64,000 nucleotides of DNA, taken from NCBI GenBank assembly GCA_001464455.1, contig LNEI01000010.1, positions 186,001-250,000 on the forward strand. Direction: 5' to 3'. The notes beneath the pieces were generated by a model. It was not told the DNA's origin and did no database searches. It saw nothing but the letters and a program-made list of their open reading frames with translations. The stretch comes from Acidobacteria bacterium Ga0077534 (GTDB lineage Bacteria; Acidobacteriota; Blastocatellia; Pyrinomonadales; Pyrinomonadaceae). Below, piece after piece: positions 24,372 through 59,587 of this stretch. The position numbers and the translations under genes were made by a program. Positions within the stretch are counted from its first letter, which is position 1, and every line of letters starts with the position of its first letter.

Positions 24372-24407
24372 AATTCGCTCAGACCCATCTGAGCGAATTT
24401 TTATTTT
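24372..24407 (+). terminator. intrinsic terminator after tRNA-Glu
   Basis: AATTCGCTCAGA and TCTGAGCGAATT form a perfect 12-bp stem with loop CCCA, followed by TTTTTATTTTT. It ends the tRNA transcript just before the TPR gene. Confidence 0.85.
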
Positions 24408-24418
24408 TGGAGAGAATG

Positions 24419-26215
24419 ATGCAAATAAGATCGATCGCTGGATTGCTGCTACTAATGATGTGCTCGCTTACAGCCATCGCACAGGCCCCGCAAACCGCGA
24501 ATGATGTCGCCCTCGTGCTTCCGTTCGAAAATACTTCGGGAAAGAGTGAGTTTAACTGGGTCGGCGAAAGTTTTGCCGATTCGCTGACCGATCTCTTGAA
24601 GGTTCCGACGCTCAACGTGATCTCGAACGAAGAGCGCAAGATCATTCAACAGCGGCTTCGAATACCGCTGACAAACATCCCGAGCCTCGCGACGTCGCTA
24701 AAGCTAGCGCGCGAAAGCGGTTCGACCTTGCTGATCTCGGGTCGCTACAACATCGTTCCGGCCGGAGCGGACACTGCTGCGACCATCAACGTCACGTCGA
24801 AGATCATTCGCGTAAGCGAAGGCCGCTTTATGAGCGAGGTGATCGACGGGCGGCAGGTTACCCGCGATATCAACGTTAACGATGCGCTGGGAAATCTGCA
24901 GACAATTCAGGGCCAGATCGCCTACCAGATCCTCTACCAGCGCGATAAGGCGCTTCCGTACTCGCAGAATCAGCTGATCGAGGCGGCCAACAAAGTCCCG
25001 GGCCGTGCTTTCGAGGCGTATATAAAAGGCCTTCTTACGCCTGTGTCCGAGGCTCGCGAGAATTTCTTTAAGAACGCATCGAGGCTGTTTGTCGAGGCAA
25101 CGCCTGATGGGATCTATTCGGAGTCCGAACTCGAACTCGGCCATCTTTACCTGGGCCAACGAAAATTTGCCGACGCGATCGGAGCATTTGAAAAGGTTGT
25201 GAGCGCTGCTCAAAAATGCCGCGACAAAGCGAAAGCCGAAAATAAACCGGCTCAGTGCAGCGACGAGAATTATGCCGAAGCTTCGTTCTACATCGGTCTC
25301 ATCTTTTGGCAGCAGGGAAACTACGAACGGGCCCTTGCGACGCTTCGTCCGTTGACCGAGGACCTCAAACTGACCACAGTTTACAACGCCCTGGGTGCGA
25401 TCGCCGTCCAGGCTTCGAGGGCTGAGAAGAAGAATCCTAATAATGCAGCCGCCCTTTTGAACGAGGGAATGGAGTTGCTTAAAAAGGCTTCAGATTCGGC
25501 TCCGGATGATGCAAACGTTAGATTTAACTACGCGACGACCCTCTTTTTGAACGGGAACATGCCCGATGCCGCTCGCGAACTTCGTTCGTCGATCGCTGCC
25601 AACCCACGCGATGGCGAGGCGTATTTCGTTCTATCAAAAGCCCTCGAATCGCTAAAAGATGAGACGACAGCCGACGTGACAAATCAGGCACAGCGATTTT
25701 TGACCGAGAACAATCGTTACGCCAAGCTCGAGACCGAGTGGCAAAAGTCGAAGAGTTTCCCCGACATTCCCATGCGCGTTAACCAGCCGGCGAGAAAGGA
25801 CTTCGTCGCGGTAGTTCTTAGCCGCAAGCCGGCCGCAACGCCCGTCGCCCAGGTCAGCGAGAGCGAAGCTCTGCTTGCAACCGCCCGCACGCTCATAAAG
25901 AACGGAAGCGACGACGAAGCGATGACCACGCTTCGCCGCGTTTTGGCGAGCGAACCGATGAGCGCTGAAAGCTATTTGCTACTAGGCAAGATACATCTCC
26001 GTCGCGGCGATATCGATCAGGCGATCAGTTCGTTCAAAACGTCCGTATTTTGGGATAACCGGCTCATCGACGCACACGTCAGTCTGGGCAAGATCTATGT
26101 CGAACGCGGCGACTGCCTGCAGGCAAAAAGCTACGTTGCTTCCGCAATGCAGATAAACTCCGAAAACCCCGACGCCGTTTCACTACAAAGATTGTCGGAA
26201 CGGTGCTCGAAATGA
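24419..26215 (+). CDS. secreted TPR-repeat protein
   Basis: This protein of about 598 residues starts with a signal peptide (IAGLLLLMMCSLTAIAQA). Residues 25-160 form a domain like those that assemble or bind envelope components (VALVLPFENTSGKSEFNWVG; TolB-like N-terminus/CsgG-like style). TPR repeats follow at about 235-420 (ELELGHLYLGQRKFADAIGA; SFYIGLIFWQQGNYERALAT) and again at 485-590. Of the two adjacent ATG codons, the second is 4 nt from GGAGAG and the better start. Role unknown, probably a periplasmic scaffold. Confidence 0.8.
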   Translation: MQIRSIAGLLLLMMCSLTAIAQAPQTANDVALVLPFENTSGKSEFNWVGESFADSLTDLLKVPTLNVISNEERKIIQQRLRIPLTNIPSLATSLKLARESGSTLLISGRYNIVPAGADTAATINVTSKIIRVSEGRFMSEVIDGRQVTRDINVNDALGNLQTIQGQIAYQILYQRDKALPYSQNQLIEAANKVPGRAFEAYIKGLLTPVSEARENFFKNASRLFVEATPDGIYSESELELGHLYLGQRKFADAIGAFEKVVSAAQKCRDKAKAENKPAQCSDENYAEASFYIGLIFWQQGNYERALATLRPLTEDLKLTTVYNALGAIAVQASRAEKKNPNNAAALLNEGMELLKKASDSAPDDANVRFNYATTLFLNGNMPDAARELRSSIAANPRDGEAYFVLSKALESLKDETTADVTNQAQRFLTENNRYAKLETEWQKSKSFPDIPMRVNQPARKDFVAVVLSRKPAATPVAQVSESEALLATARTLIKNGSDDEAMTTLRRVLASEPMSAESYLLLGKIHLRRGDIDQAISSFKTSVFWDNRLIDAHVSLGKIYVERGDCLQAKSYVASAMQINSENPDAVSLQRLSERCSK

Positions 26216-26230
26216 GGCGGTTATTGGCGA

Positions 26231-26350
26231 CAGGTGACAAGTGACGAGGCACCAGTGTAAGACCTTACAATAATTTACATTTCGAAAGGCCCGTTAATTC
26301 GGGCTTTTTTATTGATTTGGACTTCTCATTCGTCACTTGTCACCGTTCAC
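26231..26350. repeat. inverted repeat GACAAGTGACGA / TCGTCACTTGTC
   Basis: TGACAAGTGACGA (left, near 26236) and TCGTCACTTGTCACC (right, near 26330) face each other around the terminator. It may be another intergenic palindromic element. The right arm lies just upstream of the first sigma-54 promoter and could equally hold an activator site. Confidence 0.4.
26285..26310 (+). terminator. intrinsic terminator of the TPR gene
   Basis: GGCCCG-TTAATT-CGGGC followed by TTTTTT, 70 nt after the stop codon. Confidence 0.8.
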
Positions 26351-26358
26351 TCATTCCG

Positions 26359-26375
26359 TGGCACGCTATGTGCTT
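26359..26375 (+). promoter_or_regulatory. sigma-54 promoter of small RNA A
   Basis: TGGCACGCTATGTGCTT matches the -24/-12 consensus TGGCACG-N4-TTGCW. The invariant GG (26360-26361) and GC (26372-26373) are exactly 10 nt apart. It predicts +1 at G26385, which is where similarity to element B begins. Confidence 0.72.
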
Positions 26376-26384
26376 TATACATAT

Positions 26385-26534
26385 GCGGCCAGCTTGGTCA
26401 GGAAGTTAGATCAAGACCCGTCGCCACCACTACAACGAAGCCAGTTTGCCGCTGTGCTTTTCAACCTTCCGAGCGTTCCACCAGTTATCCAACCTATCGA
26501 GCCCGGCTGAGATCAGCCGGGCTCCTCGCATTTT
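26385..26534 (+). ncRNA. putative sigma-54-dependent small RNA A
   Basis: This predicted transcript is about 150 nt, from the -12/-24 promoter to the T-run of the terminator hairpin at 26499-26524. A 5' stem CTTGGTC (26393-26399) / GATCAAG (26409-26415) closes a 9-nt loop. The conserved CU-rich segment ACCTTCCGAGCGTTCC is at 26464-26479. There is no ATG in the transcript. About 350 nt downstream lies a homologue (element B) with its own promoter and terminator. The architecture resembles paired regulatory sRNAs that base-pair with mRNAs. No known RNA family was recognised. Confidence 0.7.
26499..26534 (+). terminator. intrinsic terminator of small RNA A
   Basis: GAGCCCGGCT-GAGATC-AGCCGGGCTC, a 10-12 bp GC-rich stem, then CTCGCATTTT. 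Confidence 0.85.
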
Positions 26535-26713
26535 AAGAGTCTCGAGTCTGGAGTTCTAAGTCTTGAGAGTTTCTACTCGGCCGCCGAACACCATTGCTCC
26601 CGCTCAGATGTGCATCTATCGGATGTCTTGCAACCTAAATACCCCGTTATTTACTGAGCCGCTGGTCGTTCTTGACTCAAGACTCGAGACTCCGGACACC
26701 AGACTAAAGAGAG
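26535..26713. other. spacer between the two small RNA elements
   Basis: No gene is seen. The ends mirror each other (AGTCTCGAGTCTGGAGTT on the left, GACTCAAGACTCGAGACTCC on the right). Upstream of promoter B there is a dyad AGATG-TG-CATCT near 26606-26618, a candidate enhancer-binding site for the activator a sigma-54 promoter requires. This last point is inference. Confidence 0.4.
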
Positions 26714-26730
26714 TGGCACGCCAAGTGCAT
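26714..26730 (+). promoter_or_regulatory. sigma-54 promoter of small RNA B
   Basis: TGGCACGCCAAGTGCAT fits the -24/-12 consensus, with GG (26715-26716) and GC (26727-26728) 10 nt apart. It predicts a start at 26739-26740. The sequence between -12 and +1 differs from promoter A while the promoter elements are kept. Confidence 0.75.
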
Positions 26731-26738
26731 TAACAATC

Positions 26739-26884
26739 GTGGCCAGCTTGGTCGCACGATCAAGACCCCGCCGCCATCACTACACCGAGCGCGGTTTGCC
26801 ACTGTGCTTGAACACCTTCCGAGCGTTCCTTCAGTTGTCCTACCTTTACAAAGCCCGACTCACCGAGTCGGGCTTTCCTCTTTT
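26739..26884 (+). ncRNA. putative sigma-54-dependent small RNA B
   Basis: This predicted transcript of about 146 nt is homologous to element A from its first base (G-Y-GGCCAGCTTGGTC). The stem CTTGGTC (26747-26753) / GATCAAG (26758-26764) is kept although the loop shrinks to GCAC. ACCTTCCGAGCGTTCC recurs at 26814-26829. The shared blocks are interrupted by indels that are not multiples of three, and the transcript has no ATG, so it is not a protein gene. A frame that starts at a GTG at 26739 is not conserved in A. Confidence 0.72.
26850..26884 (+). terminator. intrinsic terminator of small RNA B
   Basis: AAAGCCCGACTC-ACC-GAGTCGGGCTTT, a perfect 12-bp stem, then CCTCTTTT. The stem sequence differs from that of A but the form is the same. 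Confidence 0.88.
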
Positions 26885-27555: not shown

Positions 27556-29214
27556 ATGCGTTTATTGAGGAAAATTCTGCCTTCGTGGACCAACCTTCTG
27601 CTCGCGATACTCGCGGCGGTTTTGCTGGTGTTGGCGTTTCCTGATTTTGAATTCTGGTTTCTGGCCTGGTTCGCACTCGTGCCGCTGATGTGGGCCATCG
27701 AGCGCGAGACCAAAATGCAGAGGCCCGCACGCAGTAAGGGCTCTGACGAGGTTCCGCGAACACCGCTAGCACGATGCTTCGTCATAGGCTGGATCTTTGG
27801 GACGCTTTTCTTTTTCGGCACCTGCTGGTGGCTCGCCTACGCACCGATCCACTACGCCGGCTTCCCGCCGATCCTTGCCTATTCGCTCGTCCTCATCGCC
27901 TGCCTCGGAGCCGGCATATTCCCCGCCATCTTCGCCGCGATCCTCGCCTTCCTGCTCAAACGCCTCGGCCCGTGGGCCTTCCTCGCCGCCCCGTTCGTAT
28001 GGGTTTTCACCGAGTTTTTGCGGTACTGGCTGACGGGGAATAATTGGAATGCGATCGGGTATTCGCAGGCGTTTCGTCCGACGATAATTTCAATTGCGGC
28101 AACAGGTGGCGTATTGCTCCTTTCCTTCGCAGTCACCGCACTAGCCGGTTTCGTTTTACTGCTCCTTTCGAAGAAAACGAAAGGGCAAGTCATCGTTCAT
28201 CTGAGCATTCTCGTTGGATTGCTTTGCGTGTTCGTCGGTCATGAGCTATGGAATCTCGCCATGATTTCACACGGAAAGCCAGGCATTACAACCATTATCG
28301 CGATTCAGCCAAATGTGCCGATGAGCGGCGTTGATTCTCAAAGGCTCGACAAACTTCGCGATCAACAGTTCGCGGTTTCAGAACGAGAGGTGTCGAAAGT
28401 TGATATCAAACGGATTAGCTTCGACCGCACGGTGATCGAGAGGACTAACCCGGTGATCGTCATCCTCCCCGAATCCCCAATGAACTTCATGTACAACGAC
28501 GACCCCGAATTTCAGAAGTTCGTGGGTGATTTCGCCCGGCGGACTAACGTCAGCGTGCTGTTCAATTCGGCAGAGCCTGACCCGACGAATAAGAAATATT
28601 TTAATTCGGCTGTGATGGTCGGGCCGGATGGTAAACCAGTCGCGCAGTATGACAAGGTCTACCTTTTGCCGTTCGGCGAAGCGGTGCCGCCGCCGCTTGA
28701 TGGGATCTTGCCGGGTTTTGTTGGGAATTTCTCGTACGGCCGCGAATACGACATTTTGCCAGTTGGCGACGCGAAGGCGGGCGTGATGATCTGTTTTGAG
28801 AACCACTTCGGCCAGCTTTCGCGTGAGTACGTCCGAAACGGTGCCGACGTGATCATCGAAATGACCAACGACGGCTACCTCGGCCCGACGCCTGTTCTGA
28901 GACAGCATCTCGCCAACGCCGTCTTCCGGGCAGTCGAAACTAATCGACCCGTTCTGCGCGTCACAAACGTCGGAATAACTGCCTACATCACCGAAAAAGG
29001 TACCGTTTTAGACCCCGCTCCGGTGTATCAAGAGGACACACGCGTCTGGACCGTGTCAAAAAGCGACGGCTCGCAGACGTTTTACGTGCGATATGGCGAT
29101 TGGTTCGCGTGGCTTTGTTCGGTGGTGACGATCGGGCTGTTGATATTCGGAATAGCGACGCGTACGAGATCTCGCGAGCTGCAGATAGAGGTCGCCAACG
29201 GCGACGAACATTAA
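27556..29214 (+). CDS. lnt: apolipoprotein N-acyltransferase
   Basis: This inner-membrane enzyme transfers an acyl chain from phospholipid to the N-terminal Cys of lipoproteins. It has 552 residues with six to eight helices at the N-terminus and a periplasmic nitrilase-like domain. The triad is visible: Glu in VILPESPMNF, Lys in AQYDKVYLLPFGE and Cys in AGVMICFENH. Two repeat-derived parts are odd: residues about 55-72 after the second helix (QRPARSKGSDEVPRT) match a palindromic repeat, and the last residues and stop lie in the left arm of a 39-bp inverted repeat. Confidence 0.93.
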   Translation: MRLLRKILPSWTNLLLAILAAVLLVLAFPDFEFWFLAWFALVPLMWAIERETKMQRPARSKGSDEVPRTPLARCFVIGWIFGTLFFFGTCWWLAYAPIHYAGFPPILAYSLVLIACLGAGIFPAIFAAILAFLLKRLGPWAFLAAPFVWVFTEFLRYWLTGNNWNAIGYSQAFRPTIISIAATGGVLLLSFAVTALAGFVLLLLSKKTKGQVIVHLSILVGLLCVFVGHELWNLAMISHGKPGITTIIAIQPNVPMSGVDSQRLDKLRDQQFAVSEREVSKVDIKRISFDRTVIERTNPVIVILPESPMNFMYNDDPEFQKFVGDFARRTNVSVLFNSAEPDPTNKKYFNSAVMVGPDGKPVAQYDKVYLLPFGEAVPPPLDGILPGFVGNFSYGREYDILPVGDAKAGVMICFENHFGQLSREYVRNGADVIIEMTNDGYLGPTPVLRQHLANAVFRAVETNRPVLRVTNVGITAYITEKGTVLDPAPVYQEDTRVWTVSKSDGSQTFYVRYGDWFAWLCSVVTIGLLIFGIATRTRSRELQIEVANGDEH

Positions 29215-57862: not shown

Positions 57863-59587
57863 ATGAGCGAAAACAGAAAGATAAAACGTGCATTAATAAG
57901 CGTTTCTGACAAAACCGGCCTGGCGGACTTCGCCGCGGCTCTGGGCGGTCACGGCGTAGAGATCATCTCAACCGGCGGAACGGCAAGATCGCTCCGCGAA
58001 GCCGGGCTGACCGTCCGCGACGTCTCCGACGTAACCGGATTCCCCGAAATGATGGACGGCCGCGTCAAAACGCTTCATCCGAAAATGCACGGGGCCTTTC
58101 TCGCTCTGCGTGACAATCCGGAACATATAGCTTCGATGCAAGAACACGGCATCGAGGCGATCGATCTGGTCGTTGTAAATCTTTATCCTTTTGAAGCGAC
58201 TGTCGCGCGTGACGGCGTTTCACTCGAAGAAGCGGTCGAAAACATCGACATCGGCGGCCCGGCAATGATCCGTTCCGCTTCGAAAAACTGGCGAGATGTC
58301 GCGGTCGTGACCGATTCGCGTTTGTACTCTGAGATAGTCAGCGAGATGGACGAGAACGACGGTTCGATCTCCCTCGAAACGCGTCAACGCCTCGCCGCCC
58401 TCGCCTACACAAGAACCGCCAGCTACGACCTCGCGATCTCGTCCTATCTAGCAAAACAACTCTCAAACGACGACCTCGATCGCCTCGAACCACTGAACCC
58501 GCTTGGGCATCTTGCGTTTATCGAATTTGAAGAAAGCGACGAGGATGAGTCAGTACCACCTGCGGTAGCGGGTGGGGTTTTGCCAACTCCCGACACCGCG
58601 ACCTTGCCCGAATACACCAGCATTGACCTCGCCAAAGTAACCGACCTGAGATACGGAGAAAACCCTCACCAACGAGCAGCTCTATACGTGACCGATGGCG
58701 AAACGGGAGGGATCGCGAGCGCCGAGCAACTTCACGGCAAGGAGATGTCCTTCAACAACTATGTCGACGCTGAGGCGGCGTGGAATCTTGTACAGGACTT
58801 CGAAGAACTTGCCGTCGCGATCATCAAACACACAAACCCTTCCGGCGTCGGCACCGGAGCGACCAATCTCGAAGCCTACAGCCGAGCCCTCGCAACCGAC
58901 CCGGTCTCAGCCTTCGGCGGAATTGTTGCATTCAATCAAACAGTCGATTGCGAAACCGCAAGATCAGTGATCGAGGTTTTCTCCGAGGTTATCATCGCTC
59001 CGGAATACGACGATGATGCACTGGAAGTGTTTAGGACAAAGAAAAATCTGCGAGTCCTGAAATGCTCCCCTCCTTACGACGGAAGCGTGGCCGCCGCTTT
59101 AGGCGAACGGGGTGGTTCTCTCTCGATCGAGTACAAGCAAATTAGCGGCGGGTTCCTCGTCCAGGACCGAGACATTCATCAATTGAACACCGATGAATTA
59201 AACATCGTCACGAACCGCAAGCCAACCGACGACGAGCTCGCCGCCATGCAGCTTGCTTGGACCGTCTGCAAACACGTCAAATCAAACGCGATCGTCTTCG
59301 CGAACGCCGAGCAAACCCTCGGCGTCGGTGCCGGACAAATGAACCGTGTCGATTCGGTCCGCATCGCCGCGATCAGAGCTGAAAGATTCGATCTCGATAT
59401 AAAGGGCTCAGCCCTCGCGTCCGACGCGTTTTTCCCATTCCGCGACAATGTCGACGAAGCCGCCAAATTCGGCGTGACCGCCATTATCCAACCCGGCGGC
59501 TCGATCAAAGACGAAGAATCCATCGCCGCAGCGAATGAACATGGCATCGCGATGGCGTTTACGGGGATCCGGCATTTCAAACACTAA
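57863..59587 (+). CDS. purH: bifunctional AICAR transformylase / IMP cyclohydrolase
   Basis: This protein does the last two steps of IMP synthesis. It has 574 residues, with an N-terminal MGS-like cyclohydrolase domain (SVSDKTGLADFAAALGGHGV then EIISTGGTARSLREAG, GRVKTLHPKMHGAFLALRDN) and the AICAR transformylase domain with KHTNPSGVGTG, NAIVFANAEQTLGVGAGQMN and DAFFPFRDNVDEAAK. A short insertion rich in acidic residues around 230-245 (EEFESDEDESV) separates the domains. Confidence 0.97.
   Translation: MSENRKIKRALISVSDKTGLADFAAALGGHGVEIISTGGTARSLREAGLTVRDVSDVTGFPEMMDGRVKTLHPKMHGAFLALRDNPEHIASMQEHGIEAIDLVVVNLYPFEATVARDGVSLEEAVENIDIGGPAMIRSASKNWRDVAVVTDSRLYSEIVSEMDENDGSISLETRQRLAALAYTRTASYDLAISSYLAKQLSNDDLDRLEPLNPLGHLAFIEFEESDEDESVPPAVAGGVLPTPDTATLPEYTSIDLAKVTDLRYGENPHQRAALYVTDGETGGIASAEQLHGKEMSFNNYVDAEAAWNLVQDFEELAVAIIKHTNPSGVGTGATNLEAYSRALATDPVSAFGGIVAFNQTVDCETARSVIEVFSEVIIAPEYDDDALEVFRTKKNLRVLKCSPPYDGSVAAALGERGGSLSIEYKQISGGFLVQDRDIHQLNTDELNIVTNRKPTDDELAAMQLAWTVCKHVKSNAIVFANAEQTLGVGAGQMNRVDSVRIAAIRAERFDLDIKGSALASDAFFPFRDNVDEAAKFGVTAIIQPGGSIKDEESIAAANEHGIAMAFTGIRHFKH

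Follow-up and report, generated by a model that had tools for sequence, protein, structure and literature searches.

A small RNA family behind sigma-54-type promoters in Pyrinomonadaceae and candidate partner units complementary to its conserved segment

The window, a stretch of 64,000 nt from a Pyrinomonadaceae MAG (Acidobacteriota), carries two copies of one element between a gene for a TPR-repeat protein and lnt, the gene for apolipoprotein N-acyltransferase. The TPR gene (24407..26215, + strand), which is the upstream neighbor in most loci of the family described below, was assigned from its ORF, Pfam TPR and synteny, and lnt (27556..29214, +) from its ORF, the Pfam domains LNT_N and CN_hydrolase, and synteny. 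By ORF positions, the gap from the TPR stop (26215) to the lnt start (27556) measures 1.34 kb, in line with the 1.3 kb given in the original prediction, which had placed two homologous small RNAs, A (26385-26534) and B (26739-26884), in this gap. Both positions are borne out on the + strand. In copy A, hairpin 1 (26385-26424) and hairpin 2 (26437-26460) are followed by a conserved, mostly unpaired segment (26463..26490, +) and a terminator stem (26499-26524); copy B is built in the same order from hairpin 1 (26739-26774), hairpin 2 (26786-26810), the conserved segment (26813..26840, +) and a terminator (26850-26876), with lnt starting about 670 nt further downstream. Both segments are complementary to a partner unit described below. 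Each copy ends in a terminator, as had been proposed: that of B was found by a terminator scan, and that of A is absent from the scan listing and plain in the fold. The scan, which also picked out a terminator-like hairpin upstream of copy A, past the end of the TPR gene (26284..26309, +), found two terminators in the region against 1.8 expected in shuffles. BLAST aligns copy A to copy B with 76% identity (E 9.9e-21), and no other place in the 4.2 Mb genome matches A over its full length. A plasmid-borne repeat was considered and rejected, as no plasmid record matches and the genome itself has two copies.

Both copies are preceded by a sigma-54-type -24/-12 box, recognized from its sequence and its conservation in the family: TGGCACGCTATGTGC (26359..26373, +) for A and TGGCACGCCAAGTGC (26714..26728, +) for B. 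The 64 kb window contains exactly two instances of the box pattern TGGCACRNNNNNTGC, which begin at positions 26359 and 26714, with 0.09 expected from shuffles. The similarity of A and B does restart at the predicted +1, as had been observed originally; the description of the stretches between box and +1 as unrelated is not wholly correct, since these read TTTATACATATGC and ATTAACAATCGTG. Among 65 box-aligned rows of the family (L151, L130, L131, L141, and L155 were left out of this promoter table), the information content is 1.67-2.0 bits at columns -26 to -21 and -14 to -12 and at most 0.95 bits in the spacer from -11 to -1. An exact GG-N10-GC is present in 67 of 70 copies, in 64 of these at 9-11 nt before the covariance-model start, and the three remaining copies are L131, the chance match L151, and L130, whose upstream sequence is masked. 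Of 60 genomes, 58 have a gene for RpoN, the source genome among them. No activator site was recognized upstream of the promoter, where the common k-mers that were traced belong to the end of the TPR gene. With the promoter kept while spacer and upstream DNA vary, a decayed repeat without promoter conservation, the alternative raised alongside the original prediction, is excluded.

Several species have, upstream of their sigma-54 box, inverted repeats that are imperfect and made of simple sequence (GAGTCTCGAGTCT.., CCAAGTTCC..); their letters differ between species and their arrangement is alike. In the window, positions 26537-26567 pair up with 26675-26705, and 26233-26247 with 26330-26344, and further cases lie in L020, L036, L018, L049, and L014. 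Directly upstream of the -24 element, a partly palindromic, TTCCAGAAAA-type sequence is found in several genera (L113, L115, L122, L132-L137, L147, L149).

Both RNAs fold better than their dinucleotide shuffles (z -2.63 and -3.86), and three helices covary in the family-level alignment. The alignments consist of chosen rows, 36 in one (A2) and 40 in the other (A6), and do not comprise all matches. In the 40 rows, 94.0% of cells pair and 17 of 25 pairs change on both sides, with 102 cells of such two-sided change against 29 in shuffles; sliding the partner strand destroys the signal. The outer helix of hairpin 1 shows no variation on both sides in these 40 rows. Hairpin 1 reads CUUGAU/AUCAAG in the genus of the source genome and CACGG/CCGUG elsewhere. 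The segment between hairpin 2 and the terminator (ACCUUCCGAGCGUUCC..) is CU-rich and nearly invariant within the genus, and its mean unpaired probability over 36 sequences is 0.73, compared with 0.40 for the preceding part. A small protein was considered and rejected, as no frame is open in more than 18 of the 36 sequences and length differences other than multiples of three occur. Taken from sequence, it is as good as certain that a structured sRNA family stands behind sigma-54-type promoters, and the reading of A and B as sigma-54 sRNAs gains support from the box, the covarying hairpins, the terminator and an unpaired segment that is kept across genera.

The search that had been proposed for this RNA was carried out with a covariance model of 36 sequences, which matches 104 of 118 family genomes and all 29 of 29 genera; at E 0.01, 66 of 69 good-quality family genomes match. 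One match (G091, L171; E 0.007) is promoterless and regarded as fortuitous, so that the family count is 103 rather than 104 genomes, and some matches are cut at contig ends (G016, G106). In a sample of the class, 105 of 162 genomes match; 43 of the 162 lie outside the family, with a single match among them (G039, L151). This candidate homologue outside the family is weak, lacks a promoter and was dismissed as chance. BLAST with B at E 0.01 finds 37 of 60 genomes including its own, all congeneric (G028 is counted on short motif matches alone), and 0 of 23 from other families, while at 1e-6 it matches 67 of 119 family genomes. As far as searched, the RNA family is restricted to Pyrinomonadaceae. 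Comparison with Rfam agrees with the original statement that no described RNA with this sequence was known: the only model to score above its cut-off is that of tRNA, at another place in the window, and the two copies gave no covariance-model match at the gathering score to Qrr, GlmY/GlmZ or any other Rfam family. A relaxed search of the region yielded at best a weak match of 24.8 bits against a cut-off of 55, and relaxed searches of stretches from five relatives returned nothing relevant.

Analysis of the genomic context revealed lnt downstream of the RNA in 44 of 54 loci, mostly from other genera, a TPR gene upstream in 42, both flanking genes in 40 and prfB downstream in 38. Among copies outside the lnt locus, five (L159, L165, L164, L150, L148) have a next downstream gene on the opposite strand and two (L129, L155) a co-directional one. 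The tandem arrangement that had been emphasized in the original prediction is recurrent, with two copies within about 400 bp in 12 of 104 matching genomes, but is not the general form of the family. Within the genus, it occurs only in the source genome and G034, where A and B match the G034 copies in order at 91 and 90%, vs. 82-86% crosswise. Another pair is shared by G123 and G111 (98 and 96%, vs. about 90% crosswise), and the copies of G141 and of G135 are 97 and 98% alike within each genome. By these identities, the tandem arrangement has had more than one origin. At L155:2137-2258 (G088:C46), away from lnt, there is a second, diverged sRNA that is preceded by a -24/-12-like box of its own.

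Beyond the original prediction, many relatives contain a separate short unit complementary to the best conserved stretch of the sRNA. It first showed up in nine congeners, where BLAST gave an additional short match some 9-12 kb away from the sRNA. On the opposite strand, the unit consists of TTGACA and a -10-like hexamer spaced by 17 nt and, after about 10 nt more, of AGGACAACUGAAGGAACGCUCGGAAGG and a hairpin, which is followed by a U-run in many congeners; in G020, the scan reported TTGACA-17-TATGAT (11/12) plus a terminator. TTGAC is present in 61 of 67 units tested (68 less G029), compared with a control rate of 0.10, a count to be read in view of model R2 itself favoring TTGAC, and in 12 of the 13 units of alignment A4, which were found without using the promoter. 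At E 0.5, the partner model matches 66 of 118 family genomes and 10 of 29 genera, including some genomes, e.g., G002 and G024, in which only the antisense of the sRNA is matched. The complementary stretch is the best conserved part of the unit and overlaps an arm of the unit's own hairpin, whose loop and 3' arm vary.

The genomic places of the unit are variable. Fifty-two of 68 adjoin purH and/or comEC, a DUF4440 lipoprotein gene is the sole such neighbor in the stretch examined in six more, five lie at the 3' end of an 85-aa gene, and five have none of these neighbors. In 21 of the 68 places, the unit is followed on its own strand by the lipoprotein gene, in three of these (G108b, G115, G103) at a distance of more than 500 nt. 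In the source genome, the unit (G000:C10:256023-256127, minus strand, 6 kb beyond the window; E 2.6e-7) forms the leader of the DUF4440 lipoprotein gene, and comEC is convergent beyond that gene. Among 20 stretches downstream of the sRNA, most of them from distant genera, 13 contain comEC and only that of G092, whose unit was already known, scored; in the other 12, no match stood out beside the comEC 3' end among the best three duplexes per stretch.

Complements of the sRNA segment also occur elsewhere. The 3' end of the 85-aa gene carries one in the source genome (L067:1480-1540) and in five genomes of other genera (L237, L238, L240, L241, L245), with a SpoIIE/GAF gene convergent in the source genome and in four of the five. 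A third complementary locus follows a gene ending in ..CGCGTSFSA, which we take to be an ErpA/HesB ending, in G000, G034, and G028; a similar match exists in G009, whose contig begins too late to show the gene. A CATACARGACAACTGAAGGA-like sequence is found there (L065 near 1500, +; L308 near 712, -; L058 near 1811, -; L307 near 79, +), and a TGGAA(C/T/A) box, possibly an ECF-type promoter, precedes it by about 30 nt. In the window, purH is located at 57866-59584 with a prfB-like gene adjoining, while purH of the relatives adjoins the partner unit and comEC; this separate position is a rearrangement in the source genome.

The predicted duplexes between sRNA and partner unit range from -29 to -51 kcal/mol. 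Both RNAs are present in 49 genomes, and in 45 of these, the source genome included, none of 200 shuffles pairs as well. The long complementarity between an unpaired segment and a second unit that would be expected of a sponge or antagonist pair is thus found in these 45, by a test that is partly circular because the units from which model R2 was built had come to notice via their complementarity. Dinucleotide shuffles were used in 31 genomes and single-base shuffles in the other 18; G016 was without a usable sRNA. The fit is poor in G123, G115, G103, and G110, where 22, 7, 6, and 99 of 200 shuffles, respectively, are as good; the unit is still recognizable in the first three despite this. In the source genome, copy A and the leader fold jointly at -99.9 kcal/mol, compared with -74.3 kcal/mol apart. 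The leader hairpin in this genome has no clear U-run, which makes premature termination there doubtful. Energies with own and with swapped sRNAs are nearly equal (-40.9 vs. -40.6; 171 of 2000 permutations as good) and hence indicate no significant coevolution. On visual inspection, the segment is changed (CCGCCCGCCGAGC..) in many of the genera in which no unit was detected, and most with a unit keep ACCUUCCGAGCGUUCC. There are exceptions in both directions, as g40 and g41 have units but changed sRNAs, and G060, G079, and G120 have GCGUUCC-type segments and no detected unit. A wobble-pattern search of 41 genomes gave 15 matches that are neither sRNA nor known unit, vs. nine with a reversed control pattern; three of the 15 lie at the erpA-like locus.

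These features would be best accounted for if A and B were sigma-54-dependent, stand-alone, trans-acting sRNAs that pair with sponge or target partners, a reading to which we give a probability of about 0.68. The sRNA is likely to work by pairing through its conserved segment, the unpaired CU-rich stretch being the presumed pairing site. Its counterpart would be the short unit, which has a sigma-70-type promoter and carries the complement of this segment in its 5' part. Where no gene follows the unit on its strand, its simplest role would be to titrate the sRNA, as a sponge or antagonist RNA. Where the DUF4440 lipoprotein gene stands close behind, as in the source genome, the complement would be part of an mRNA leader and the mRNA a likely target, since pairing would open the leader hairpin. 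This division into stand-alone sponges and lipoprotein-leading targets is favored here; an earlier view of the partner as purely a sponge was revised, as the lipoprotein gene follows on the same strand in the 21 rows mentioned. Two sRNA copies may provide a higher dose or separate control. More tentatively, the system could constitute an RNA-against-RNA switch, in which the sigma-54 sRNAs are opposed by a second sRNA family at three unlinked loci, sharing AGGACAACUGAAGGAACG near the 5' ends and using housekeeping and perhaps ECF-type promoters; in some lineages, one member would have become a lipoprotein leader, with a sponge turning into a target or the reverse.

Other explanations start from the same observations. 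The frequency of lnt downstream and the terminator at the end of each copy would suit tandem cis-regulatory leaders of lnt, that is, riboswitch-like attenuators each with an expression-platform terminator. A cis leader should, however, always lie directly upstream of a co-directional gene, and the five copies followed by an opposite-strand gene, set against two with a co-directional one, contradict this. Moreover, each copy has its own promoter in addition to its terminator, lnt begins far beyond B, and a conserved competing antiterminator was not noticed, though without a dedicated search; we consider leaders of this kind very improbable. A much more serious competitor, if itself only tentative, holds that the sRNA acts mainly on many mRNAs via purine-rich ribosome-binding sites (CCUUCC/GUUCCUUC), or holds a protein, with the purH-comEC unit as one target among several instead of a sponge. 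The CU-rich segment is indeed complementary to Shine-Dalgarno-like sequence and complements exist at three different loci, but the wobble search, with its 15 other matches against nine for the reversed control, speaks against this reading.

It is also conceivable, if unlikely, that the complementarity is a relic: part of the sRNA would have been copied in inverted orientation to give the purH-comEC unit, which would have been kept for its terminator only. The overlap of the matching part with the hairpin arm, the lack of significant coevolution and the poor fit in G123, G115, and G103 are in agreement with such an origin. A unit kept for its terminator is nevertheless hard to reconcile with a complementary stretch that is better conserved than loop and 3' arm, and with similar complements repeated at two unlinked loci.

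Qrr sRNAs are sigma-54-dependent, and GlmY and GlmZ are paralogous sRNAs with sigma-54 promoters that regulate glmS together with RapZ. The present family resembles GlmY/GlmZ in comprising paralogous sRNAs behind sigma-54-type promoters and gave no match to them in the Rfam searches. Trans-acting sRNAs with sponge or target partners would find their closest likeness in Qrr of Vibrio and its sponge QrrX, where a multi-copy sRNA set is paired by an antagonist RNA from its own locus and qrrX is activated by the LysR-type QrrT (PMC9732341). There is no Rfam relation to Qrr, and the phylum is different. CjNC110 and CjNC140 of Campylobacter jejuni likewise are two RNAs pairing via CU-rich and GA-rich parts, and CjNC110 is reported to be possibly under sigma-54 (PMC10470494); however, the possibly sigma-54-controlled RNA is the GA-rich one there, whereas it is the CU-rich one here. 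An understudied phylum gains a family-wide sRNA with a clear promoter, structure and candidate partners, and control by sigma-54 and sRNA in Acidobacteriota becomes directly testable. Text searches of the open-access literature, at the level of listings and abstract openings, brought up no described sRNA of this group. Partner units beside the same genes over several genera may, in addition, offer a way to trace the interchange of sponge and target in evolution.
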